From a virus, in the IMG/VR virus record IMGVR_UViG_3300031576_000181, positions 1 through 37,884 of that record: DNA of 37,884 bases; one strand, 5' to 3'. The notes under the pieces were generated by a model. The model saw only the letters and a list, made by a program, of their open reading frames with translations. It ran no database searches and was not told the origin of the DNA. The position numbers were made by a program, and so were the translations under genes. Of the stretch, positions 3,544 through 16,349 are shown one piece after another. Every line of letters begins with the position of its first letter. Within the stretch, counting starts at the first letter, position 1.

Positions 3544-4943
3544 CGCAATCCTCCCCTTCGCATCAATCTCGCAGGTCGTTTTGGTTTCGGATTCTTGCTC
3601 CCGTACACAGGAGAGCCCGCGCTTCGCCAGTCCAAAATCGCCTGCGTCATCGAATCCACCTGATCGTCATCCTCGCCGTTTGGAAATGTCGCGCATTCTT
3701 CGATGAATCCCGTCACCCAAGGATACATCACCTCATCCGCCGGTATCCAGAGATTGCCGGCTTCGAGCTCTGGCTCGACTGCCATTGCCCGGACTTCCTT
3801 CCCGCCCTTGGGTTCGACGAGGATGATGCCGCTGATCTCCTTTCGGAGAAGTTCCTCGATCGCGTTTCCAGTTGCCTTCGCCTCGATGAGTTTCCGTGTC
3901 GCCGCCGACCATTTGGCGGATAGTGACCGGATCTTGTCGAGGATCTCGACGATCGACCACTTTCCGCGAATCTGATCGAGAAGATATTTTCGCGAGCCCG
4001 TCTTTCCCCACACCTGTCCGACGACGAAACTTGTTCCGTCCTCTTTCTGCACGGGGTCCCAGGATTGTTTGATCTGCTCGAACTCCGGTAGATCCTCAGG
4101 CCGCCAGCGTTTCCAAAACTGACGTTTCAAGATCGCGCCTTCCATCGGCGCCGGGCGACCCTGGTATAGCGAAGCGTAAAGCCTTGGACCGATCGACGTT
4201 TTGATGCCGGCCAGCGATCCCTCGTCGTATCGCTCCGGACAGAGCGCCTGTCCTGGCGTGCGACCGATGGGGTCGGCGTCCTCCGCGTTCGCTGGTAGAT
4301 TCACGACCGTCCATTTGTCTCCATGCTCATGTATAAGCCAACCCGAGAGATCTTTTTCGTGCCATCGCGTCGCAATAACGACGATCGACCCCAAAGGTTC
4401 CAGGCGCGTGTAAAAGGTCGATTTGAACCATTCGACGTGTGATTCCCGCATGGTCTCGCTCATCGCCTCCTCGAGCGTCTTGATGGGATCATCGATGATG
4501 CCGAGATTCATTCCGCGGCCAGTGATCGCGCCGCCGATTCCTGACGCCACGAGGCCTCCACCTTCCTGCGTATCGAATTCCATCGACGAGTGACTTTCCC
4601 GCGTCGCCTTCACGCCGACCGACGGATTTCCGACGACCTCCGCCTTGATCCTGCGTCCGAAGAATCGCGCGAGCTTATCGCCGTAGCTTGTTAGAAGAAT
4701 TCGATTCTCAGGCCACAGATCGAAATACCACGTCGGCATCCAGTGCGAGAAGAGCTCACTCTTTCCGTGCCGCGGTGGCATCGAAATGATCACGCGACCG
4801 CCGCCGGCGAGTACTGCCTCTCGGACGATCCGCGCCGCGTATTCGAGATAAGGCCAGCGAATCCATCGACCGCCGCTCGCCACCTGTGCGTAGGTATCAG
4901 GACTTAGGCGCCAATAATCTATTTCATGGGCGGGATCATTCAT
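3540..4943 (-). CDS. terL: Terminase large subunit
   Basis: 467 residues: packaging ATPase plus headful or cos nuclease. A Walker A-like loop is visible at residues 54-62 (SMPPRHGKS), a Walker B at about 148-152 (GIIDD), and motif III at about 190-200 (IATRWHEKD). The nuclease domain begins with the first catalytic Asp in SWDP (about 296) and ends with an acidic cluster (EDDDQVDS) near residue 430. The start overlaps the small subunit's stop by four bases. All expected motifs are present, so it looks functional. Confidence 0.95.
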   Translation of the reverse strand: MNDPAHEIDYWRLSPDTYAQVASGGRWIRWPYLEYAARIVREAVLAGGGRVIISMPPRHGKSELFSHWMPTWYFDLWPENRILLTSYGDKLARFFGRRIKAEVVGNPSVGVKATRESHSSMEFDTQEGGGLVASGIGGAITGRGMNLGIIDDPIKTLEEAMSETMRESHVEWFKSTFYTRLEPLGSIVVIATRWHEKDLSGWLIHEHGDKWTVVNLPANAEDADPIGRTPGQALCPERYDEGSLAGIKTSIGPRLYASLYQGRPAPMEGAILKRQFWKRWRPEDLPEFEQIKQSWDPVQKEDGTSFVVGQVWGKTGSRKYLLDQIRGKWSIVEILDKIRSLSAKWSAATRKLIEAKATGNAIEELLRKEISGIILVEPKGGKEVRAMAVEPELEAGNLWIPADEVMYPWVTGFIEECATFPNGEDDDQVDSMTQAILDWRSAGSPVYGSKNPKPKRPARLMRRGGLR

Positions 4944-5393: not shown

Positions 5394-5399
5394 ATTATA
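5394..5399 (-). promoter_or_regulatory. Possible -10 element ahead of the terminase genes
   Basis: On the minus strand a perfect TATAAT ends seven bases before the TerS ATG and includes the methyltransferase stop codon. No TTGACA-like -35 lies 16-18 bases upstream, so it would need an activator or may be chance. If used, the transcript would start at or next to the ATG. Confidence 0.3.
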
Positions 5400-6735
5400 C
5401 GCCTTTTCGTTTGGCCTTTTCTCCCGTCGTGGCATCCAATCGGGCGAGGATGACGTCACAGAATCTCGGCTCGATTTCGATGGCATAACATCGTCGCCCC
5501 AATTGTTGTGCAGCGATGATCTGCGAGCCCGATCCAGCAAATGGCTCGTATAACAGCGCACCTGGGCGCGTATGCTTTTTGATCGCATTTTCAAAGAGTT
5601 TCAGAGGTTTTTGCGTTGGGTGCGCATTTTTCGAAGGTCTTCTCTGGCCGTCATAATCGGCAAACCACACCGACGACGCCGAGCCAGACCTTAGACCATC
5701 ATGAAACGGTTTATCCCCTTTCGGCCAACCCATCGTGGCCATTTCATGCTGTGGCTCCCATAGGCCAGATACGGGGACGTCTTCGCCTGATGGCCATCCT
5801 ACGAGGCAGGGCTCATGCTGCCATGGCCAATAGGAGAACGTCAGAATCGGCGAGGGTTTCACCCAGACGATTTGTTGATGGATGTGAATGCCGAGCCGTT
5901 GCCAGACGTCCTCGATGAGACGTTGGCGTTTGCTGGCGTGCCAGCAGTACCACGCCGCATTGGCGGTGAGTACCTGTTTTGCATTTGAAAATGTTTGCAG
6001 AAAGAACTGCTCGGCATCTTCGATTTCGACTTCCTTGTAGTTTTCGCTCCAATCCTTACCGCCATCTTGGGGCTGATCGTCTCCAGTGTAATCAACGAGA
6101 TACGGTGGATCGGTGAAAAAAAGATCCGCCTTTTCGTCTCCCATGAGTCGGGACACGTCCTCTGTTTTCGTGGCATCGCCGCAGAGTAAGCGATGAGCAC
6201 CAAGCTCCCATAGCTCGCCTGTTTTAACGCGAGCTTTGATATTTTCCGGCACGGCATCTTCCTTCGTCATCGCGGTATCGAAGTATTCCGATCGAAATGA
6301 TTTGAGCTCAATCTCCGGAAATCGGAACGACTCCTCGATTTCCTCCATCGTGATTCCAGCCGCCGTCATGAACTCATAGAGCCCTTGAGAGTCCATTTCG
6401 CCGTACTGAGACGTGAGTGCGAGTACCTTGCGCCTGGCCTCCGCCTCGCTCTTTGCCTCGACGAAGTTGCACGGAATCTCGCACGTTTCTATTTCTCCTG
6501 CTTCGATCATCTGACGAAGGGTTCGTATCCTCTGCGTTCCGTTCAGCAAGTAGTGGTGATCATCTTTGCGCCAAACGGATATTGGTTCGGAAAAACCTAG
6601 CTCCATCATTTCTTTTCTGAGTTTCGCGTAGTTTTCTTTGGATAGGATTTTGAGATTTCCCTGGAAGTACTCGCACTTTTCGACAGCAATCGTCGATGCG
6701 CCCATGCAGGATATTTTCAGTTTATTCCTGGACAT
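5395..6735 (-). CDS. ParB-like nuclease domain fused to DNA adenine/cytosine methyltransferase
   Basis: 446 residues from ATG 6735, which overlaps the HNH gene by 14 bases; a reading from 6807 would lie inside that gene. Residues about 15-150 resemble ParB/sulfiredoxin-fold domains (FQGNLKIL, then PISVWRKDDHHYLLNGTQRIR). The rest is an N6-adenine or N4-cytosine methyltransferase of the beta class: HRLLCGDAT, catalytic DPPY at about 209-212, HPTQKP, and the S-adenosylmethionine loop FAGSGS near 399-404. Such fusions are common in phages and probably protect phage DNA from restriction or mark it for regulation. The ParB part may give DNA targeting. Base specificity cannot be read from the sequence. 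Its first 30 residues resemble those of the neighbouring HNH protein. Confidence 0.9.
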   Translation of the reverse strand: MSRNKLKISCMGASTIAVEKCEYFQGNLKILSKENYAKLRKEMMELGFSEPISVWRKDDHHYLLNGTQRIRTLRQMIEAGEIETCEIPCNFVEAKSEAEARRKVLALTSQYGEMDSQGLYEFMTAAGITMEEIEESFRFPEIELKSFRSEYFDTAMTKEDAVPENIKARVKTGELWELGAHRLLCGDATKTEDVSRLMGDEKADLFFTDPPYLVDYTGDDQPQDGGKDWSENYKEVEIEDAEQFFLQTFSNAKQVLTANAAWYCWHASKRQRLIEDVWQRLGIHIHQQIVWVKPSPILTFSYWPWQHEPCLVGWPSGEDVPVSGLWEPQHEMATMGWPKGDKPFHDGLRSGSASSVWFADYDGQRRPSKNAHPTQKPLKLFENAIKKHTRPGALLYEPFAGSGSQIIAAQQLGRRCYAIEIEPRFCDVILARLDATTGEKAKRKGV

Positions 6736-7318
6736 GGCCCCAGTTTTTCCTTTCCAGAATTCTCTGTATTTGTGCCCTAGACACGTCGAACCTGGCGCAC
6801 AGCTCACGAACTGATGAACCGAAACATTTGCGCATCAATCGGATATCGATTACTTGGCATGAACTGAGCTTGGATCTGGAGCACTTCTCGCCGAGGAGTC
6901 TTTTCCCAAGCACGCGCCTTGCATGCCTTTCATTTTCGGTCGGCGTGACCCATTCCAAGTTCTCAGGCCTATTGTCCATTCGTATCCCGTTTTTATGGTT
7001 TGAAACCATTCCTACGTGCGGAACTCCGTGGAATGCCATCGCGATCAGGCGGTGGACAGGAACGAATTGAACCCCTCTTTTATGCTGATTATTTTTTATC
7101 CAGACGCGGCAATACCCGTCTTTGTCGACATAAAGCGTCTTCGGATGTTTCGCGTTGGGATGGTCGTTTTTCTGGAAAACCGTTCCTGAATCGGAAACGA
7201 ACACGTTATCGAAGTTTGGGACTTTTTTAAGATTTCCCTGGAAGTCGACAAGATCCGCAAGTGGGAGCGATATCGCTCCCTGGCATTTGATCTCAATCTT
7301 CTGGGAGATCTCGTTCAT
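6722..7318 (-). CDS. HNH homing-type endonuclease with C-terminal helix-turn-helix
   Basis: 198 residues from ATG 7318, chosen because it starts just inside the end of the preceding small zinc gene; ATG 7399 would cover that gene almost entirely. After about 30 residues shared with the next gene comes a NUMOD4-like segment (VFVSDSGTVF), then the HNH core: VHRLIAMAF, VSNHKNG, DNRPENLEWVTP, NERHA. A C-terminal helix-turn-helix (SSVRELCARFDVSRAQIQRIL) probably binds the target. Free-standing HNH genes of this type are mobile and cut cognate sites in related phages. The N-terminal block looks derived from the methyltransferase it precedes. Confidence 0.88.
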   Translation of the reverse strand: MNEISQKIEIKCQGAISLPLADLVDFQGNLKKVPNFDNVFVSDSGTVFQKNDHPNAKHPKTLYVDKDGYCRVWIKNNQHKRGVQFVPVHRLIAMAFHGVPHVGMVSNHKNGIRMDNRPENLEWVTPTENERHARRVLGKRLLGEKCSRSKLSSCQVIDIRLMRKCFGSSVRELCARFDVSRAQIQRILERKNWGHVQE

Positions 7319-11000: not shown

Positions 11001-11005
11001 GTTTT

Positions 11006-11527
11006 TCAATTTTGCTCCTCCGGCTTGGGGAAGGCGAGCCCGCCGGAGACGCGTTCAATAAGGGCGTGCATCTCCCGATGCGCGACCTCCGCCTCCTGCT
11101 GGCGGCGGTAGAGAATCCATGATTTCACGAATCGCCCCGCCCTGGCTGGGAGCTCCTCCGTCCTGGTCTCGCAAAGCGCACGCCATCCGCCACTAGCTTC
11201 AACCGCCGCCATTTCCTTCGCGTCGAGATCGGACGATGTGGGAGGATTCGGCCATCCTCGCGATCGCACGAGCCCGCAAACCTTTGACCACGCGGATTCG
11301 GCCCCACCTTCGACAGCTTCGCAAATTCGCCGTACCTCCGCTGCGGATGGGAAAAACTCGAACTCGTTCATCCCGACCCTGATAGCGACAGCGACGCGAT
11401 CAAAAGGGAGGTCGGCGAGGACGCGCGCTCTGGCGGCGATCTCCGCCGCGTTCGGCTTTGTTCCCTTCGTCACGTTCGCGAGCTCTAGCAACAACTGCGC
11501 GATCTGCTTTTGTTCCTTCGTCGTCAT
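11006..11527 (-). CDS. Putative replication accessory protein (helicase-loader-like by context)
   Basis: 173 residues. ATG 11527 has a strong GGGAG six bases upstream, which fixes the start although it lies 128 bases inside the initiator gene. It is helical with FFPSAAEVRRICEAVEGGAESAWSKV, reminiscent of phage helicase loaders that follow an initiator gene, as P follows O in lambda. No ATPase motif is visible. The family is not recognised, so the role is inferred from position only. Confidence 0.5.
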   Translation of the reverse strand: MTTKEQKQIAQLLLELANVTKGTKPNAAEIAARARVLADLPFDRVAVAIRVGMNEFEFFPSAAEVRRICEAVEGGAESAWSKVCGLVRSRGWPNPPTSSDLDAKEMAAVEASGGWRALCETRTEELPARAGRFVKSWILYRRQQEAEVAHREMHALIERVSGGLAFPKPEEQN

Positions 11528-12347
11528 GATTTCTCCCGTCGTTCATTTTTTCGATGAGATCGCCGGCGACCTCCGCTGTTTCCCGCATCCGGTCTACCGA
11601 CGCCTTCGCCCGGTGCCAAGCGCCGGACTTCTTGCCGGGACTACACCAGCGGTCGAGCCTCTTCTGGCGCTCCTTCTCCGTGCCACCGAATAGGTATTCG
11701 ATGTCGTTGAACTTATGGCGTTCCTCGTAGGAATCATTCCGAAAGTTCTCCACTCCTAGAAGGGCTCCATTCTCTCCATAATCCGAAATCGCCTGCTCGA
11801 TCCACCTCTGACGTTCCGGCGTGAGTCGGTAACATTTCGCGTCCTTCTCCCAACTTTCCAAGTAGGCACGAAAGACCAGGAGTATGGCCTCGTTCGGTTT
11901 CCCCCCAGACCCCCCTTCAATACCTAATACCTTATGCCTTAGTACCTTATGCCTTAGTACCTTAGCATCTCGCGAGTGCTCCGTTAGACAACGGTTATTT
12001 AACGGTTCTTTAACCGTTATTGGTCCATGTGCCGGAAATTCCGAGGCTTTTTCCGTATGATGTGGATTCTGATGCTTCGACCACGTGATGATTTGAATGT
12101 ATCCAACTCCGTCGACTTCGTAGCGTTCGATGAACTCCGCTGACTCTAGGGCTCGAAGTCCTACGTCGACATCATGATCGTCATAAGGCAGCACTTGAGC
12201 TTTGATTTTCGCTGGGATGTCTTTGAGACGGCCAGCCTTATCTGCGATGATCCATAGCCCCTGAAAGAGAATTCTCGTAAGCGGAGGCAACGCAGCAAGT
12301 TCCACGTTGAGGAAAAAATCAGGCTTGATGAAGCGCGTACGTGCCAT
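11400..12347 (-). CDS. Replication initiator (lambda O-like organisation)
   Basis: 315 residues from ATG 12347. The N-terminus (ARTRFIKPDFF, PPLTRILFQGLWIIADKAGRL) is the winged-helix domain common to phage replication initiators. A linker follows that contains repeated LRHKV units encoded by 15-base DNA repeats. The C-terminal domain (YRLTPERQRWIEQAI, through KFNDIEYLFGG) is typical of the same group. The last 40 residues are basic, low in complexity and overlap the next gene. As in lambda O, the likely origin lies inside the gene. Upstream are two strong hairpins and a promoter. A TTG start at 12413 is possible but lies within the hairpins. Confidence 0.75.
   Translation of the reverse strand: MARTRFIKPDFFLNVELAALPPLTRILFQGLWIIADKAGRLKDIPAKIKAQVLPYDDHDVDVGLRALESAEFIERYEVDGVGYIQIITWSKHQNPHHTEKASEFPAHGPITVKEPLNNRCLTEHSRDAKVLRHKVLRHKVLGIEGGSGGKPNEAILLVFRAYLESWEKDAKCYRLTPERQRWIEQAISDYGENGALLGVENFRNDSYEERHKFNDIEYLFGGTEKERQKRLDRWCSPGKKSGAWHRAKASVDRMRETAEVAGDLIEKMNDGRNHDDEGTKADRAVVARARERDEGNKAERGGDRRQSARPRRPPF
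11921..12020. repeat. Candidate replication origin: direct repeats and AACGGTTA inverted repeats
   Basis: Two exact copies of TACCTTATGCCTTAG (11928-11942 and 11943-11957) are flanked by partial copies at 11921 and 11958. Some 25 bases on, AACGGTT at 11990-11996 precedes a hairpin, TAACGGTT/AACCGTTA (12000-12007 and 12012-12019, four-base loop); a CCGTTA half-site lies at 11981. The segment is AT-rich and lies in the linker of the initiator gene, as in lambdoid origins. Confidence 0.5.
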
Positions 12348-12360
12348 AGAAGAATTAATC

Positions 12361-12429
12361 GGCCCGCACCCGGTGACTTGGCGAGAAACCGGGGCGGACC
12401 GATCGAGCCCCAACCTTTCGAGCTGGGGC
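12361..12429 (-). promoter_or_regulatory. Two strong hairpins in the initiator leader RNA
   Basis: In minus-strand RNA, 12400-12361 folds into a 13-pair stem (seven plus six pairs with one wobble and one bulged base) around a 13-base loop. Before it, TGGGGC/GCCCCA at 12424-12429 and 12407-12412 forms a six-pair stem. The larger hairpin ends 13 bases before the ATG, which has no other clear Shine-Dalgarno. No U-run follows, so it is not a standard terminator. Confidence 0.5.
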
Positions 12430-12471
12430 AGCCACTACGTTGCTTTGGTTAAAAACAGCCAAGCCGAGATC

Positions 12472-12500
12472 ATTAGAAACCGAAACTGCGGCATTGTAAA
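12472..12500 (-). promoter_or_regulatory. Main early leftward sigma70-like promoter
   Basis: Minus strand: -35 TTTACA (12495-12500), a 17-base spacer and -10 TCTAAT (12472-12477); each hexamer is one base off consensus. The start would be near 12465, giving a leader of about 118 bases before the initiator ATG. It shares its -35 with the exonuclease promoter. Confidence 0.6.
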
Positions 12501-12571
12501 TATTTTTCAGTTTCCGATCCCATTTGTTTTTGACACGCGTTGCGGTATTCTCTGCGACGAAAGAGGTCGCG

Positions 12572-12769
12572 ATGAAAAAACGAAAAGTGATGAAGTCCTG
12601 GATCGTCTACGACAAGACCTGCGTAATGTGCCGGCGGAAGTACACCGCGATGCGAAAGCACGCGACGACGTGCTCGAACGATTGCCAATCGGCCAAGAAC
12701 CGGCTCCAGAAGGTTCACGGCGTCGACTTCATCGAAAAAGACTATAAATTCCGTATCTTACGGCCTTAG
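12572..12769 (+). CDS. Small zinc-finger protein, first gene of the plus-strand island
   Basis: 65 residues from ATG 12572 (GAAAGAGGT upstream); the longer reading from 12524 has no better site. It is basic and has CVMCRRKY, then CSNDCQSAKNR, the layout of short zinc knuckles found in phage and bacterial small proteins. It reads away from the initiator gene. A TTGACA lies at 12530-12535 but no matching -10 is clear. It could bind nucleic acid; no function is recognised. Confidence 0.6.
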   Translation: MKKRKVMKSWIVYDKTCVMCRRKYTAMRKHATTCSNDCQSAKNRLQKVHGVDFIEKDYKFRILRP

Positions 12770-12777
12770 AGATTTTC

Positions 12778-12807
12778 TTTACTTTTCTTACAGTTTCCTT
12801 TTATAAT
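12778..12807 (+). promoter_or_regulatory. Plus-strand promoter with perfect -10
   Basis: TATAAT at 12802-12807 with TTTACT at 12778-12783 (18-base spacer; TTACTT gives 17). The start is expected near 12814, just before the first pairing strand of the structured leader. It would drive the plus-strand island from 12920 on. Confidence 0.6.
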
Positions 12808-12814
12808 GATTCCC

Positions 12815-12905
12815 GTGGTTGCGAATTCAAATAAGTTATCCATTGCCCCGGCCGACGACAGCAGGCGTTCGGTCGCAACCACCGCTTGCCCGTCGGTTCG
12901 GGGCA
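12815..12905 (+). ncRNA. Structured leader RNA with pseudoknot-like pairing
   Basis: Three helices can be drawn by hand. P1: GTGGTTGCGA (12815-12824) with TCGCAACCAC (12873-12882), ten pairs. P2: TGCCCCG (12844-12850) with CGGGGCA (12899-12905), continued by CCGAC (12852-12856) with GTCGG (12892-12896). P3: GCAGGCG (12861-12867) with CGCTTGC (12883-12889), seven pairs with one wobble. P3 lies inside P2, and the P3 loop contains the 3' strand of P1, so P1 makes a pseudoknot. The structure ends just before GGGAG and the ATG at 12920. No known riboswitch class is recognised. Confidence 0.5.
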
Positions 12906-12919
12906 CCCGGGAGAACACA

Positions 12920-13246
12920 ATGATCAGGATGAGACCAACAAAAGATGGAATATGGAGCCTAAAACCGAAACCTTTCTACGGTGAGTTGCCGCTTGGAAAT
13001 GGCACTCTGTTTACGGTTGGCGCTTTCGAGCTTGGATTTGATGGCCGGCTTTTTGTCGGCATTGAGGGCCACGGAGCCTATACGTTCAACGGCTTTGTTT
13101 CTTGGAATTACGCCGCTGAAAAGCTCGGCCTACTTGAAGGCGACGCTCGAAATGTTGCCGACTGGATCAACGCTCAATTGAACATAAATATCATTGGATC
13201 CGGGAGGGGACCACAGGGATTCTATGACGAAAGGTTTTGCGCATGA
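12920..13246 (+). CDS. Hypothetical protein of the plus-strand island
   Basis: 108 residues from ATG 12920, chosen because GGGAG lies seven bases upstream and the promoter's TATAAT overlaps the only longer ATG start (12806). Sequence is beta-rich early (GTLFTVGAFELGFDGRLFVGIEG), then helical (SWNYAAEKLGLLEGDARNVADWINAQL). No known family. Its expression is likely controlled by the structured leader in front. The stop overlaps the next small frame as ATGA. Confidence 0.6.
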   Translation: MIRMRPTKDGIWSLKPKPFYGELPLGNGTLFTVGAFELGFDGRLFVGIEGHGAYTFNGFVSWNYAAEKLGLLEGDARNVADWINAQLNINIIGSGRGPQGFYDERFCA

Positions 13247-13314
13247 GAACTCAATTCGTAAAACTTCAGCTCGTCTGCGAACGCCCGATCGAGCATGATG
13301 GGAAACCGTCTTGA
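13243..13314 (+). CDS. Possible 23-residue coupled peptide
   Basis: An ATG overlapping the preceding stop (ATGA) opens 23 residues (MRTQFVKLQLVCERPIEHDG and a short end), with its stop overlapping a TTG of the next frame. The opening QFVKLQLVCE looks protein-like, so this could be the remnant of a longer gene broken by a frameshift. Weak evidence. Confidence 0.25.
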   Translation: MRTQFVKLQLVCERPIEHDGKPS

Positions 13315-13514
13315 GTCAAGCGATGAGGGAAAAGAGCGAGCGAACTCATGAAGAAGGCTGGAACTCCGCTATGTGGCCATCTTCATCCCTGATCGGTCGG
13401 CTTATGCGATGTGGATGGACACATAGGAAAGTGCGCCGGTACACGGAGGTAATAATCCGCAGCACGTATCAATCCGTGCCATGGGCTGACCATAATCAAA
13501 GGAGAATGAGATGA
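13311..13514 (+). CDS. Possible small basic protein (low support)
   Basis: 67 residues from TTG 13311, or 63 from ATG 13323. Basic and Trp/Arg-rich with no recognisable motif. The case for it is the chain of stop-start overlaps on both sides. Against it, residue composition is unusual and another frame over 13360-13420 also reads plausibly (VAIFIPDRSAYAMW), which suggests a decayed or frameshifted gene. Confidence 0.3.
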   Translation: MSQAMREKSERTHEEGWNSAMWPSSSLIGRLMRCGWTHRKVRRYTEVIIRSTYQSVPWADHNQRRMR

Positions 13515-13693
13515 GCACATGGGAATTGATTGAATGCGCGAGGATAAACTTTGAGAATCTCGGAAAGCTCGTGTCTGGAATCAAAGAGCATCCGATGTAC
13601 AAAATTGTGGAGGCCCAGCTCACAATCGCAGCGAACCAGGCTGAAGAGGAGGATAGAAAAATGGAGGCGCGTGAGACCGCGGATCGCACATGA
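13511..13693 (+). CDS. Small helical protein
   Basis: 60 residues with a strong AAAGGAG before ATG 13511. It is predicted mostly helical and acidic toward the end (ANQAEEEDRKMEARETAD). The start overlaps the previous frame and the stop overlaps the next ATG, so it is translated in a coupled series. Function unknown. Confidence 0.55.
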   Translation: MSTWELIECARINFENLGKLVSGIKEHPMYKIVEAQLTIAANQAEEEDRKMEARETADRT

Positions 13694-13941
13694 GAAAATC
13701 GAACTACGTAGTAATCGAGGAGGACTTCGCTGGCATCGATCCAGTAGTCATCAAGGACGTTGGACCTTGGGATAAGTACCTATCGGTGACAAATGACGCA
13801 GAGAACGTGATCGAGGAGCTATTTCGAGAAGGTCGGCTGAACGAAGGTCAGCGGCTTTTCTACATCGATAGCAATGGCCTGCAGGACGAGATTCTCATCA
13901 AGAATCGGAAGTTCGCTGGATTTGCTCGTTACAAACTGTGA
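13690..13941 (+). CDS. Small acidic alpha/beta protein
   Basis: 83 residues. Starts with an ATGA overlap. Acidic with EEDFAGIDPVVIKDVGPWDK, a helix VIEELFREGRL and an ending FYIDSNGLQDEILIKNRKF. The fold looks compact and soluble. No family recognised; acidic small phage proteins in such islands sometimes mimic DNA or inhibit host enzymes, which is speculation here. Confidence 0.55.
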   Translation: MRKSNYVVIEEDFAGIDPVVIKDVGPWDKYLSVTNDAENVIEELFREGRLNEGQRLFYIDSNGLQDEILIKNRKFAGFARYKL

Positions 13942-13960
13942 AGAAAACGGAGGAACGAAA

Positions 13961-14215
13961 ATGAACTGCGCAATCTCAAACGAAACGATCAAGCGAAAGC
14001 TTCGCACATGGAATGCCGTATTATTCGGCTGGGCTCTCGCGGCAACAGTGGCGGTGCTAGTAGGATGCGGGGAAGGAAATCAGCCGGCGCTTTCGGACGA
14101 ATCGGAGCGCGATATCCAAACGACGGAATGCGAGCTCGATCTTCAGAAGTGCCTTCTCGAGTGTAATGCTCAATGTTCAATCTGCTACGATTCCTATGAT
14201 GCCTGCCTGGAATGA
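13961..14215 (+). CDS. Cysteine-rich lipoprotein
   Basis: 84 residues from ATG 13961 with GGAGG upstream; an earlier ATG at 13874 would overlap the previous gene. A basic N-terminus and hydrophobic stretch (ALAATVAVLVGC) end in a lipobox LVGC, so it should be lipid-anchored after cleavage. The mature part has seven further cysteines in a short tail (CELDLQKCLLECNAQCSICY). Phage lipoproteins of this size can block superinfection or act as outer spanins, but there is no proline-rich linker here and it is far from the lysis genes. Exact role unknown. Confidence 0.6.
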   Translation: MNCAISNETIKRKLRTWNAVLFGWALAATVAVLVGCGEGNQPALSDESERDIQTTECELDLQKCLLECNAQCSICYDSYDACLE

Positions 14216-15827: not shown

Positions 15828-16349
15828 CTAATAGTCCTTCACGTTGATGAGAACTTCATCCTGGAATTTATTCGAGAGCGAGGTCGTCGCAGAATAGATG
15901 AGTTTGACCCGATTGCCGTCCGCTCCCGCTTTGATCGATGCAATCGCTTTCGCAGCCGAAAAAGCGTCCGCGGCAGCTGCCGCCACCGCTTGTTCCTGAA
16001 AGACGAGCGTATCGTTTTTGAGCGAGCCGAAGATGATGTCCATGATTCGCGTCGCGTATCCCTTAGTGGAATTCACGACGAAATCGCCGACCCGGAATCC
16101 AGCTATCACGAGGTCTGTATCGTCGCGAATCGTCGTCGTGCTTCCGGAAATCGCGACTCCGGCCGGAATAGACGCCGTTGTCGACACCAGAAAACTAGCA
16201 CTGATGTCGACGTTATCACTCAGTCGAATGGCCTGAAGCGTAACCGTGGAGAGAATCTCCCCAGGGCCTAAAACCTTATGATATAAGACCGAAAAGCCGT
16301 ATTCGTCGAATGGTTCTTTTTCGACCTCGGTAATGAGCACGGCCACCAT
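15828..16349 (-). CDS. Hypothetical structural protein
   Basis: 173 residues from ATG 16349. Beta-rich (SFLVSTTASIPAGVAISGSTT, GFRVGDFVVN) with a helical alanine-rich stretch (AVAAAAADAFSAAKAIASI) near the end. Reads like phage appendage or decoration proteins, with no known domain. A start at GTG 16340 also fits the AGG upstream. Likely virion-associated by neighbourhood. Confidence 0.5.
   Translation of the reverse strand: MVAVLITEVEKEPFDEYGFSVLYHKVLGPGEILSTVTLQAIRLSDNVDISASFLVSTTASIPAGVAISGSTTTIRDDTDLVIAGFRVGDFVVNSTKGYATRIMDIIFGSLKNDTLVFQEQAVAAAAADAFSAAKAIASIKAGADGNRVKLIYSATTSLSNKFQDEVLINVKDY

Follow-up and report, generated by a model that had tools for sequence, protein, structure and literature searches.

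The window, as we call the whole stretch of viral DNA analyzed here (a virus record of 37,884 bases), contains a leftward gene block encoding a portal protein, TerL, a DNA methyltransferase, a RecE-like exonuclease and a replication initiator, followed by small rightward ORFs from about 12.5 kb. One leftward-encoded protein matches both ParB-like and DNA methyltransferase families and is probably a fusion of the two; coordinates of this and other features are collected in Table 1. GC skew flips sign at 12-13 kb, going from -0.16 to +0.15 across positions 11001-14000, between the leftward and rightward blocks and near the replication initiator gene. This flip could correspond to an origin or to a boundary of divergent transcription. 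A terminator-like hairpin about 3 kb further on is possibly the end of the rightward unit. The ORF that heads this unit, 12920-13246, has no family match, and its protein has no relative in viral contigs, genome contigs or phages; a fold model of the protein (mean pLDDT 45.6) was too poor to use.

Table 1. Positions of features in the window and, where a contig is named, of phage RNAs with the same architecture.
Feature	Position	Strand	Remarks
Protein matching ParB-like and DNA methyltransferase families	5395-6807	-	
Replication initiator	11400-12347	-	First ~126 residues 56% identical to those of HK639; rest without reported match
Weak HNH-like ORF	ends 12769		Pseudoknot element sits between this end and ATG 12920
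Sigma-70-type promoter	12778..12807	+	-35 TTTACT 12778-12783, weak; spacer 18 bases; -10 TATAAT 12802-12807, perfect
H1, 5' arm	12815-12824	+	GTGGTTGCGA; at predicted transcript start
Linker	12825..12843	+	Single-stranded, 19 bases; from the topology, would have to span the stacked helices
Possible anti-Shine-Dalgarno GUUAUCC	12835..12841	+	Complements 12910-12916 except for one A-G mismatch
H2	12844-12857 with 12891-12896 and 12898-12905	+	14 pairs, one bulged base
H3	12861-12867 with 12883-12889	+	7 pairs
Loop UUCGG	12868-12872	+	5 nt between H3 and H1'
H1', 3' arm	12873-12882	+	TCGCAACCAC; in hairpin loop, abuts H3' without spacer
Shine-Dalgarno GGGAG	12909-12913	+	6 bases separate GGGAG from ATG 12920
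ORF 12920-13246	12920-13246	+	108 aa; heads rightward run of small ORFs
Terminator-like hairpin	15987..16009	+	8 such sites in the window against 5.5 expected
Group RNA	L055:3923-4040	+	
Group RNA	L058:3624-3741	+	
Group RNA	L089:834-953	-	
Group RNA	L139:1043-1162	+	
Group RNA	L143:7965-8084	-	
Group RNA	L152:6019-6131	-	
Group RNA	L153:869-984	-	
Group RNA	L076:721-835	+	

In sequence searches the window phage appears isolated; here and below, these searches may omit the records most similar to that of the window, and close kin may exist. Searches with TerL and the replication protein returned distant relatives only, the best TerL relatives reaching 35% identity among viral contigs and 44% among named phages, and a RecE search of viral contigs returned no relatives. 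The best named-phage match of the replication gene is HK639.

Between the weak HNH-like ORF and the ORF at 12920 lies the element studied here. The promoter-like site before it matches the consensus at 10 of 12 positions, and two such sites were found in the window compared with 2.9 expected in shuffles; the promoter consensus by itself is not above chance. The placement given in the original prediction, just after the start expected from a TATAAT promoter and just before GGGAG, agrees with the sequence at both ends. Position 12815 is the eighth base past TATAAT, and transcription would start at or near 12814-12815. H2 ends at 12905 with only CCC (12906-12908) before GGGAG, which starts 4 bases downstream of H2, and the ATG follows 15 bases downstream. 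The sequence after 12905 is of the type ACCCGGGAG and holds no T-run, the longest run of T near the end of H2 being 2.

Helices of ten, twelve and seven pairs had been predicted. The ten and the seven are right; the helix given as twelve has 14 pairs with one bulge. The sequence shows directly that the ten-pair helix, H1, connects the loop of the nested hairpin with the predicted 5' terminus of the transcript, as had been claimed. H1 consists of 10 Watson-Crick pairs (12815-12824 with 12873-12882) with a duplex energy of -16.4 kcal/mol, and the hairpin at 12842-12906 has a minimum free energy (MFE) of -40.1 kcal/mol. The H1 duplex plus the hairpin with the H1 strands left free (-36.7 kcal/mol) can be set against a nested minimum of -41.9 kcal/mol, a comparison which leaves out the loop cost of the pseudoknot and by which additive energies would favour H1.

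Topologically the fold is an H-type pseudoknot, and H1 and H3 can stack coaxially into one long helix. To cross the 10 pairs, the 5-nt loop would have to bridge about 25 A along one groove or about 37 A along the other, as estimated from A-form fibre parameters. Following the general rule for H-type pseudoknots we take the shorter path, through the deep groove, and on this estimate the fold appears feasible. Pairing potential read from one sequence suggests that H1 may form in the cell.

Shuffling controls make it very unlikely that this pseudoknot arose by chance. Among 200,000 dinucleotide shuffles of 12815-12908 (94 bases), 62 held 10 bases complementary to the 5' end (offsets 0-2), and a nested MFE as low as the real one was found in 5 of 5000. 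None of 5000 shuffles matched the MFE of the hairpin at 12842-12906. A strict descriptor (exact TATAAT, H1 of at least 10 pairs and a crossing H2) gave one match in 15,286 shuffled windows (1.16 Gb). In 3.73 Mb of real sequence, from which L001, a copy of the window, was removed before counting, it matched only the window and one group of phage RNAs; the ten matches are those of the window and eight other contigs, since L058 and L142 are the same contig. A looser, promoter-free form of the topology, for which the window ranked 15th of 334 matches, was dropped as evidence because it is too common in GC-rich coding DNA. We consider the fold to be, with high probability, a selected feature.

The prediction that the element belongs to no known class was borne out by comparison with the covariance models of Rfam 15, which gave no match at gathering scores in the whole window and none up to E=10 for 12760-12960. 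DNA similarity and pattern searches found no relatives beyond the phage RNAs just mentioned, which we call the L055 type. Eight pattern matches in the genome contigs look by eye like ordinary coding-like sequence; they are absent from the strict-descriptor matches and from the 22 matches of the tight descriptor described below. Among open-licence PMC papers, none was found to describe the window element or the L055-type group. To our knowledge, few leader pseudoknots of phages have been described.

The L055-type architecture is carried by five of 137 phage contigs, relatives by TerL or replication protein that were fetched without regard to RNA. A descriptor scan of these contigs identified L055, L058, L089 and L090, and pattern searches added L139, L140, L141, L143, L152 and L153. 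L076, whose H1, H2 and H3 are spelled quite differently, was added on a model match of 22.9 bits (E 0.034) together with inspection. These RNAs are about 110 nt long and have a 5'-end pseudoknot with compensated changes and a terminal U-run. They sit near TerS, portal or early-gene blocks, close to the starts of early or late gene blocks, and on inspection show no obvious gene in the next 200-350 nt.

Covariation of H1 in this group is positive. In an alignment of seven members 99% of cells pair, and of the 11 H1 pairs four change on both sides, none changes on one side only and five are invariant, the other two deviating only through one unpaired cell in one sequence. This alignment holds seven of ten group sequences (L090, L140 and L141 were omitted as near-identical to rows kept), and its seven rows represent about five distinct types and hence few independent events.

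Like the window element, the L055-type element has no Rfam match at gathering score. A sub-threshold mir-208 match overlapping it in L058 was taken as spurious. In L055, a real match to RF02932 (Betaproteobacteria-1 RNA) at 4106-4236 (+) follows the pseudoknot RNA at a distance of about 70 bases. RF02932 matches in four of 398 Pseudomonadota genomes had no such pseudoknot upstream in a quick look for T-runs and motifs, and we treat the association as adjacency alone. The apparently non-coding few hundred bases after the U-run share pieces such as GTCAGGGCGC and CAGCTAAT in L139, L143 and L153; L089 and L055 differ from these three on the 3' side of the pseudoknot RNA. A search of 299 genomes with the group model R1, built from the nested part and sequence, gave 0 matches and, having no positive control, shows little.

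The window and the L055-type RNAs share a 5' H1 paired into the loop of a two-part hairpin, with H1' 0-3 nt before H3'. A tight descriptor of this layout (H1' 0-3 nt before H3', H1 of at least 7 pairs, a two-part hairpin, promoter not required) gave 22 matches in 3.91 Mb: ten group members, the window, and 11 matches without a promoter-like box. The 11 matches with such a box (at least 5 of 6 positions) are the ten group members and the window. Shuffles lead us to expect 12.5 matches, 0.47 of them with a box (590 and 22 per 184 Mb). The tight descriptor was written when the window and the group were both known and is fitted to both, so the shuffles control its looseness only. The real set includes contigs fetched as group members; L055, L058, L076, L089, L090 and the window are the unselected ones. 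Copies (L001, L142 and L154) were removed before the loose- and tight-descriptor counts. All ten members recovered have a U-run and a promoter-like box at most 28 bases upstream; L152, which belongs to the group by sequence, was missed.

The H1 of L055, L143 and L153, the commonest in the group, is identical to that of the window at 8 of 10 positions, and both differences preserve pairing. For one short stretch compared by eye, this agreement is suggestive of kinship. In other respects the two differ. H2 of the L055 type ends in a U-run (TTTTTGC), whereas the window has none (runs of at least 4 were tested). The linker is about 8-14 nt in the group by our own reading and 19 in the window, and the stretch from H3 to H1' is about 15-19 bases, often with a small hairpin, compared with 5 in the window. 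Model R1 gave five matches to E=10 in the window, none of them at 12815-12905. Because it has neither the U-run nor a match to R1, we did not file the window element as a member of the group, whose layout it shares.

It is a possibility, though one we rate as rather unlikely, that the window leader and the U-run RNAs belong to a single class of phage RNA, recognizable by shape, whose versions have diverged in sequence. In such a class the first transcript bases would fold into the loop of a long hairpin and stack flush, and the fold would directly follow a promoter where a gene block begins. All members would share one partner, either RNA polymerase or a decay enzyme, and their outputs would vary with what follows, a U-run giving a free RNA or attenuator and a Shine-Dalgarno sequence a leader. 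A shape shared without sequence at phage transcript starts would be a concrete, testable class, and sharing of shape only would explain why sequence-based RNA catalogues miss it.

We propose that the element is a cis-acting pseudoknotted mRNA leader which seals the 5' end of its transcript and gates ORF 12920-13246, and we give this reading a probability of roughly 0.42. That it is a cis leader of some kind seems likely. Between the two roles originally predicted, cis-regulatory RNA or small RNA acting in trans, the former is better supported by the Shine-Dalgarno sequence and start codon. The latter is weakened by the lack of a U-run after H2, and therefore of a terminator that would release a small RNA there; together with the immediate start codon, this favours a leader over a free small RNA. 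Placement between TATAAT and the Shine-Dalgarno sequence with correct spacing also counts for a leader, as does the finding that in other phages this architecture also follows promoter-like boxes and its H1 shows compensated changes. The weak -35 counts against it, as do the U-runs ending the RNAs of the same architecture, which suggest a different output there.

In the proposed mechanism, the first ten bases of the transcript would pair with the loop of the H2/H3 hairpin, so that the 5' end would lie within a helix that stacks on H3. According to PMC3997798, both RppH and the RNase E 5' sensor depend on single-stranded 5' ends. A 5' end within a helix should therefore resist both enzymes, which we assume for the host, and this sealing may prolong the life of a message for small, probably early, ORFs. 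With H1 formed, the linker would be stretched along the helices, where it probably cannot reach the Shine-Dalgarno sequence, which would stay free. If H1 were opened or displaced through a protein or a second RNA, or had not finished folding, GUUAUCC could pair with GGAGAAC and close the ribosome site.

Six pairs between 12835-12841 and 12910-12916 have a probability of 0.53-0.94 in the nested ensemble. The energy of the linker/Shine-Dalgarno pairing was reached by 31 of 400 linker shuffles, and this pairing, on which the hypothetical switch depends, is only weakly above chance in these models. With H1 reserved and the linker blocked, 12909-12913 have an unpaired probability of only 0.24-0.39, the Shine-Dalgarno sequence being partly paired elsewhere. 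Protection, the switch and its trigger are what we infer for the leader.

Another possibility, which we consider unlikely, is a nascent-RNA antiterminator similar to put of HK022, where the fold would bind RNA polymerase after the promoter and terminators in the rightward unit would be read through. The element lies just behind a promoter-like site that opens a block of small genes, the position described for putL in PMC9378689. The record of HK639 is annotated with a 'putL-like antiterminator RNA', and RNAs of the same architecture occur near the starts of gene blocks, early or late. Against this, the topology of put is another one, no Rfam family matches, and a gene begins immediately after the element. 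None of the open-licence PMC papers found deals with antitermination in HK639.

Somewhat lower we place an autogenous translational operator as in T4 gene 32, in which a phage protein, be it the product of ORF 12920-13246 or a different one, would bind the pseudoknot and so block the ribosome site. A pseudoknot in a leader does adjoin the ribosome site here, and gene 32 and rpsO are precedents (PMC3014915). The ORF, however, has no family match and no SSB match, and in the window nothing A+U-rich and unstructured separates the pseudoknot from the ribosome site.

We regard it as improbable that the element is a trans-acting small RNA, released through processing or at a terminator that escaped notice. 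Phage RNAs of similar architecture end in a U-run and are followed by a stretch without an obvious gene, and this reading fits them better than the window element, where no U-run or other terminator comes right after H2 and an ORF with a good ribosome site begins 15 bases on.

Equally improbable is a fold due to chance, or one lying in the coding sequence for the N terminus of an ORF that begins at 12806. The frame 12806-13246 is indeed open into ORF 12920-13246, and GC-rich coding DNA often shows such topologies when no promoter is demanded. Among 172 real 38-codon pieces, the codon score of 12806-12919 (-0.105 per codon) falls at the 1.7th percentile; of 516 off-frame pieces, 55% score at least as high. 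There is no ribosome site at 12806 and a good one at 12920. Codon score and ribosome-site position led us to reject 12806-12919 as coding sequence, and the shuffling controls (strict descriptor, hairpin energy and tight descriptor) argue against chance.

Least probable is an element at the level of DNA, in which the 10-base arms would serve a repressor as inverted sites or belong to a replication origin, the RNA fold being incidental: the arms do form a perfect inverted repeat at a promoter, with the replication initiator gene about 0.5 kb away and the skew change nearby, yet whole arms occur nowhere else in the window, only one of the 8-base parts searched recurs, once (10708), and H2 and H3, whose energy no shuffle matched, would be left unexplained.

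The window element and the RNAs of the same layout point to a kind of phage RNA control element of which little is known. The leader reading that we prefer has parallels in the 5'-terminal stems that stabilize E. coli mRNAs such as ompA and papA, in which the 5' end is likewise held in a helix; these are simple stem-loops, whereas the window has a pseudoknot. HK022 putL and putR are also structured nascent RNAs, putL just downstream of an early promoter. In PMC9378689 they are described as two stem-loops of about 70 nt in all, in contrast to one interrupted hairpin with a pseudoknot in the window. Gene 32 of T4 and RB69 has a pseudoknot in a phage mRNA 5' leader near the ribosome site (PMC3014915); in the window the pseudoknot is a pairing potential. 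In T4, 67 nt that include A+U-rich sequence separate the site from the start codon downstream, whereas H2 of the window ends 15 bases before the ATG.
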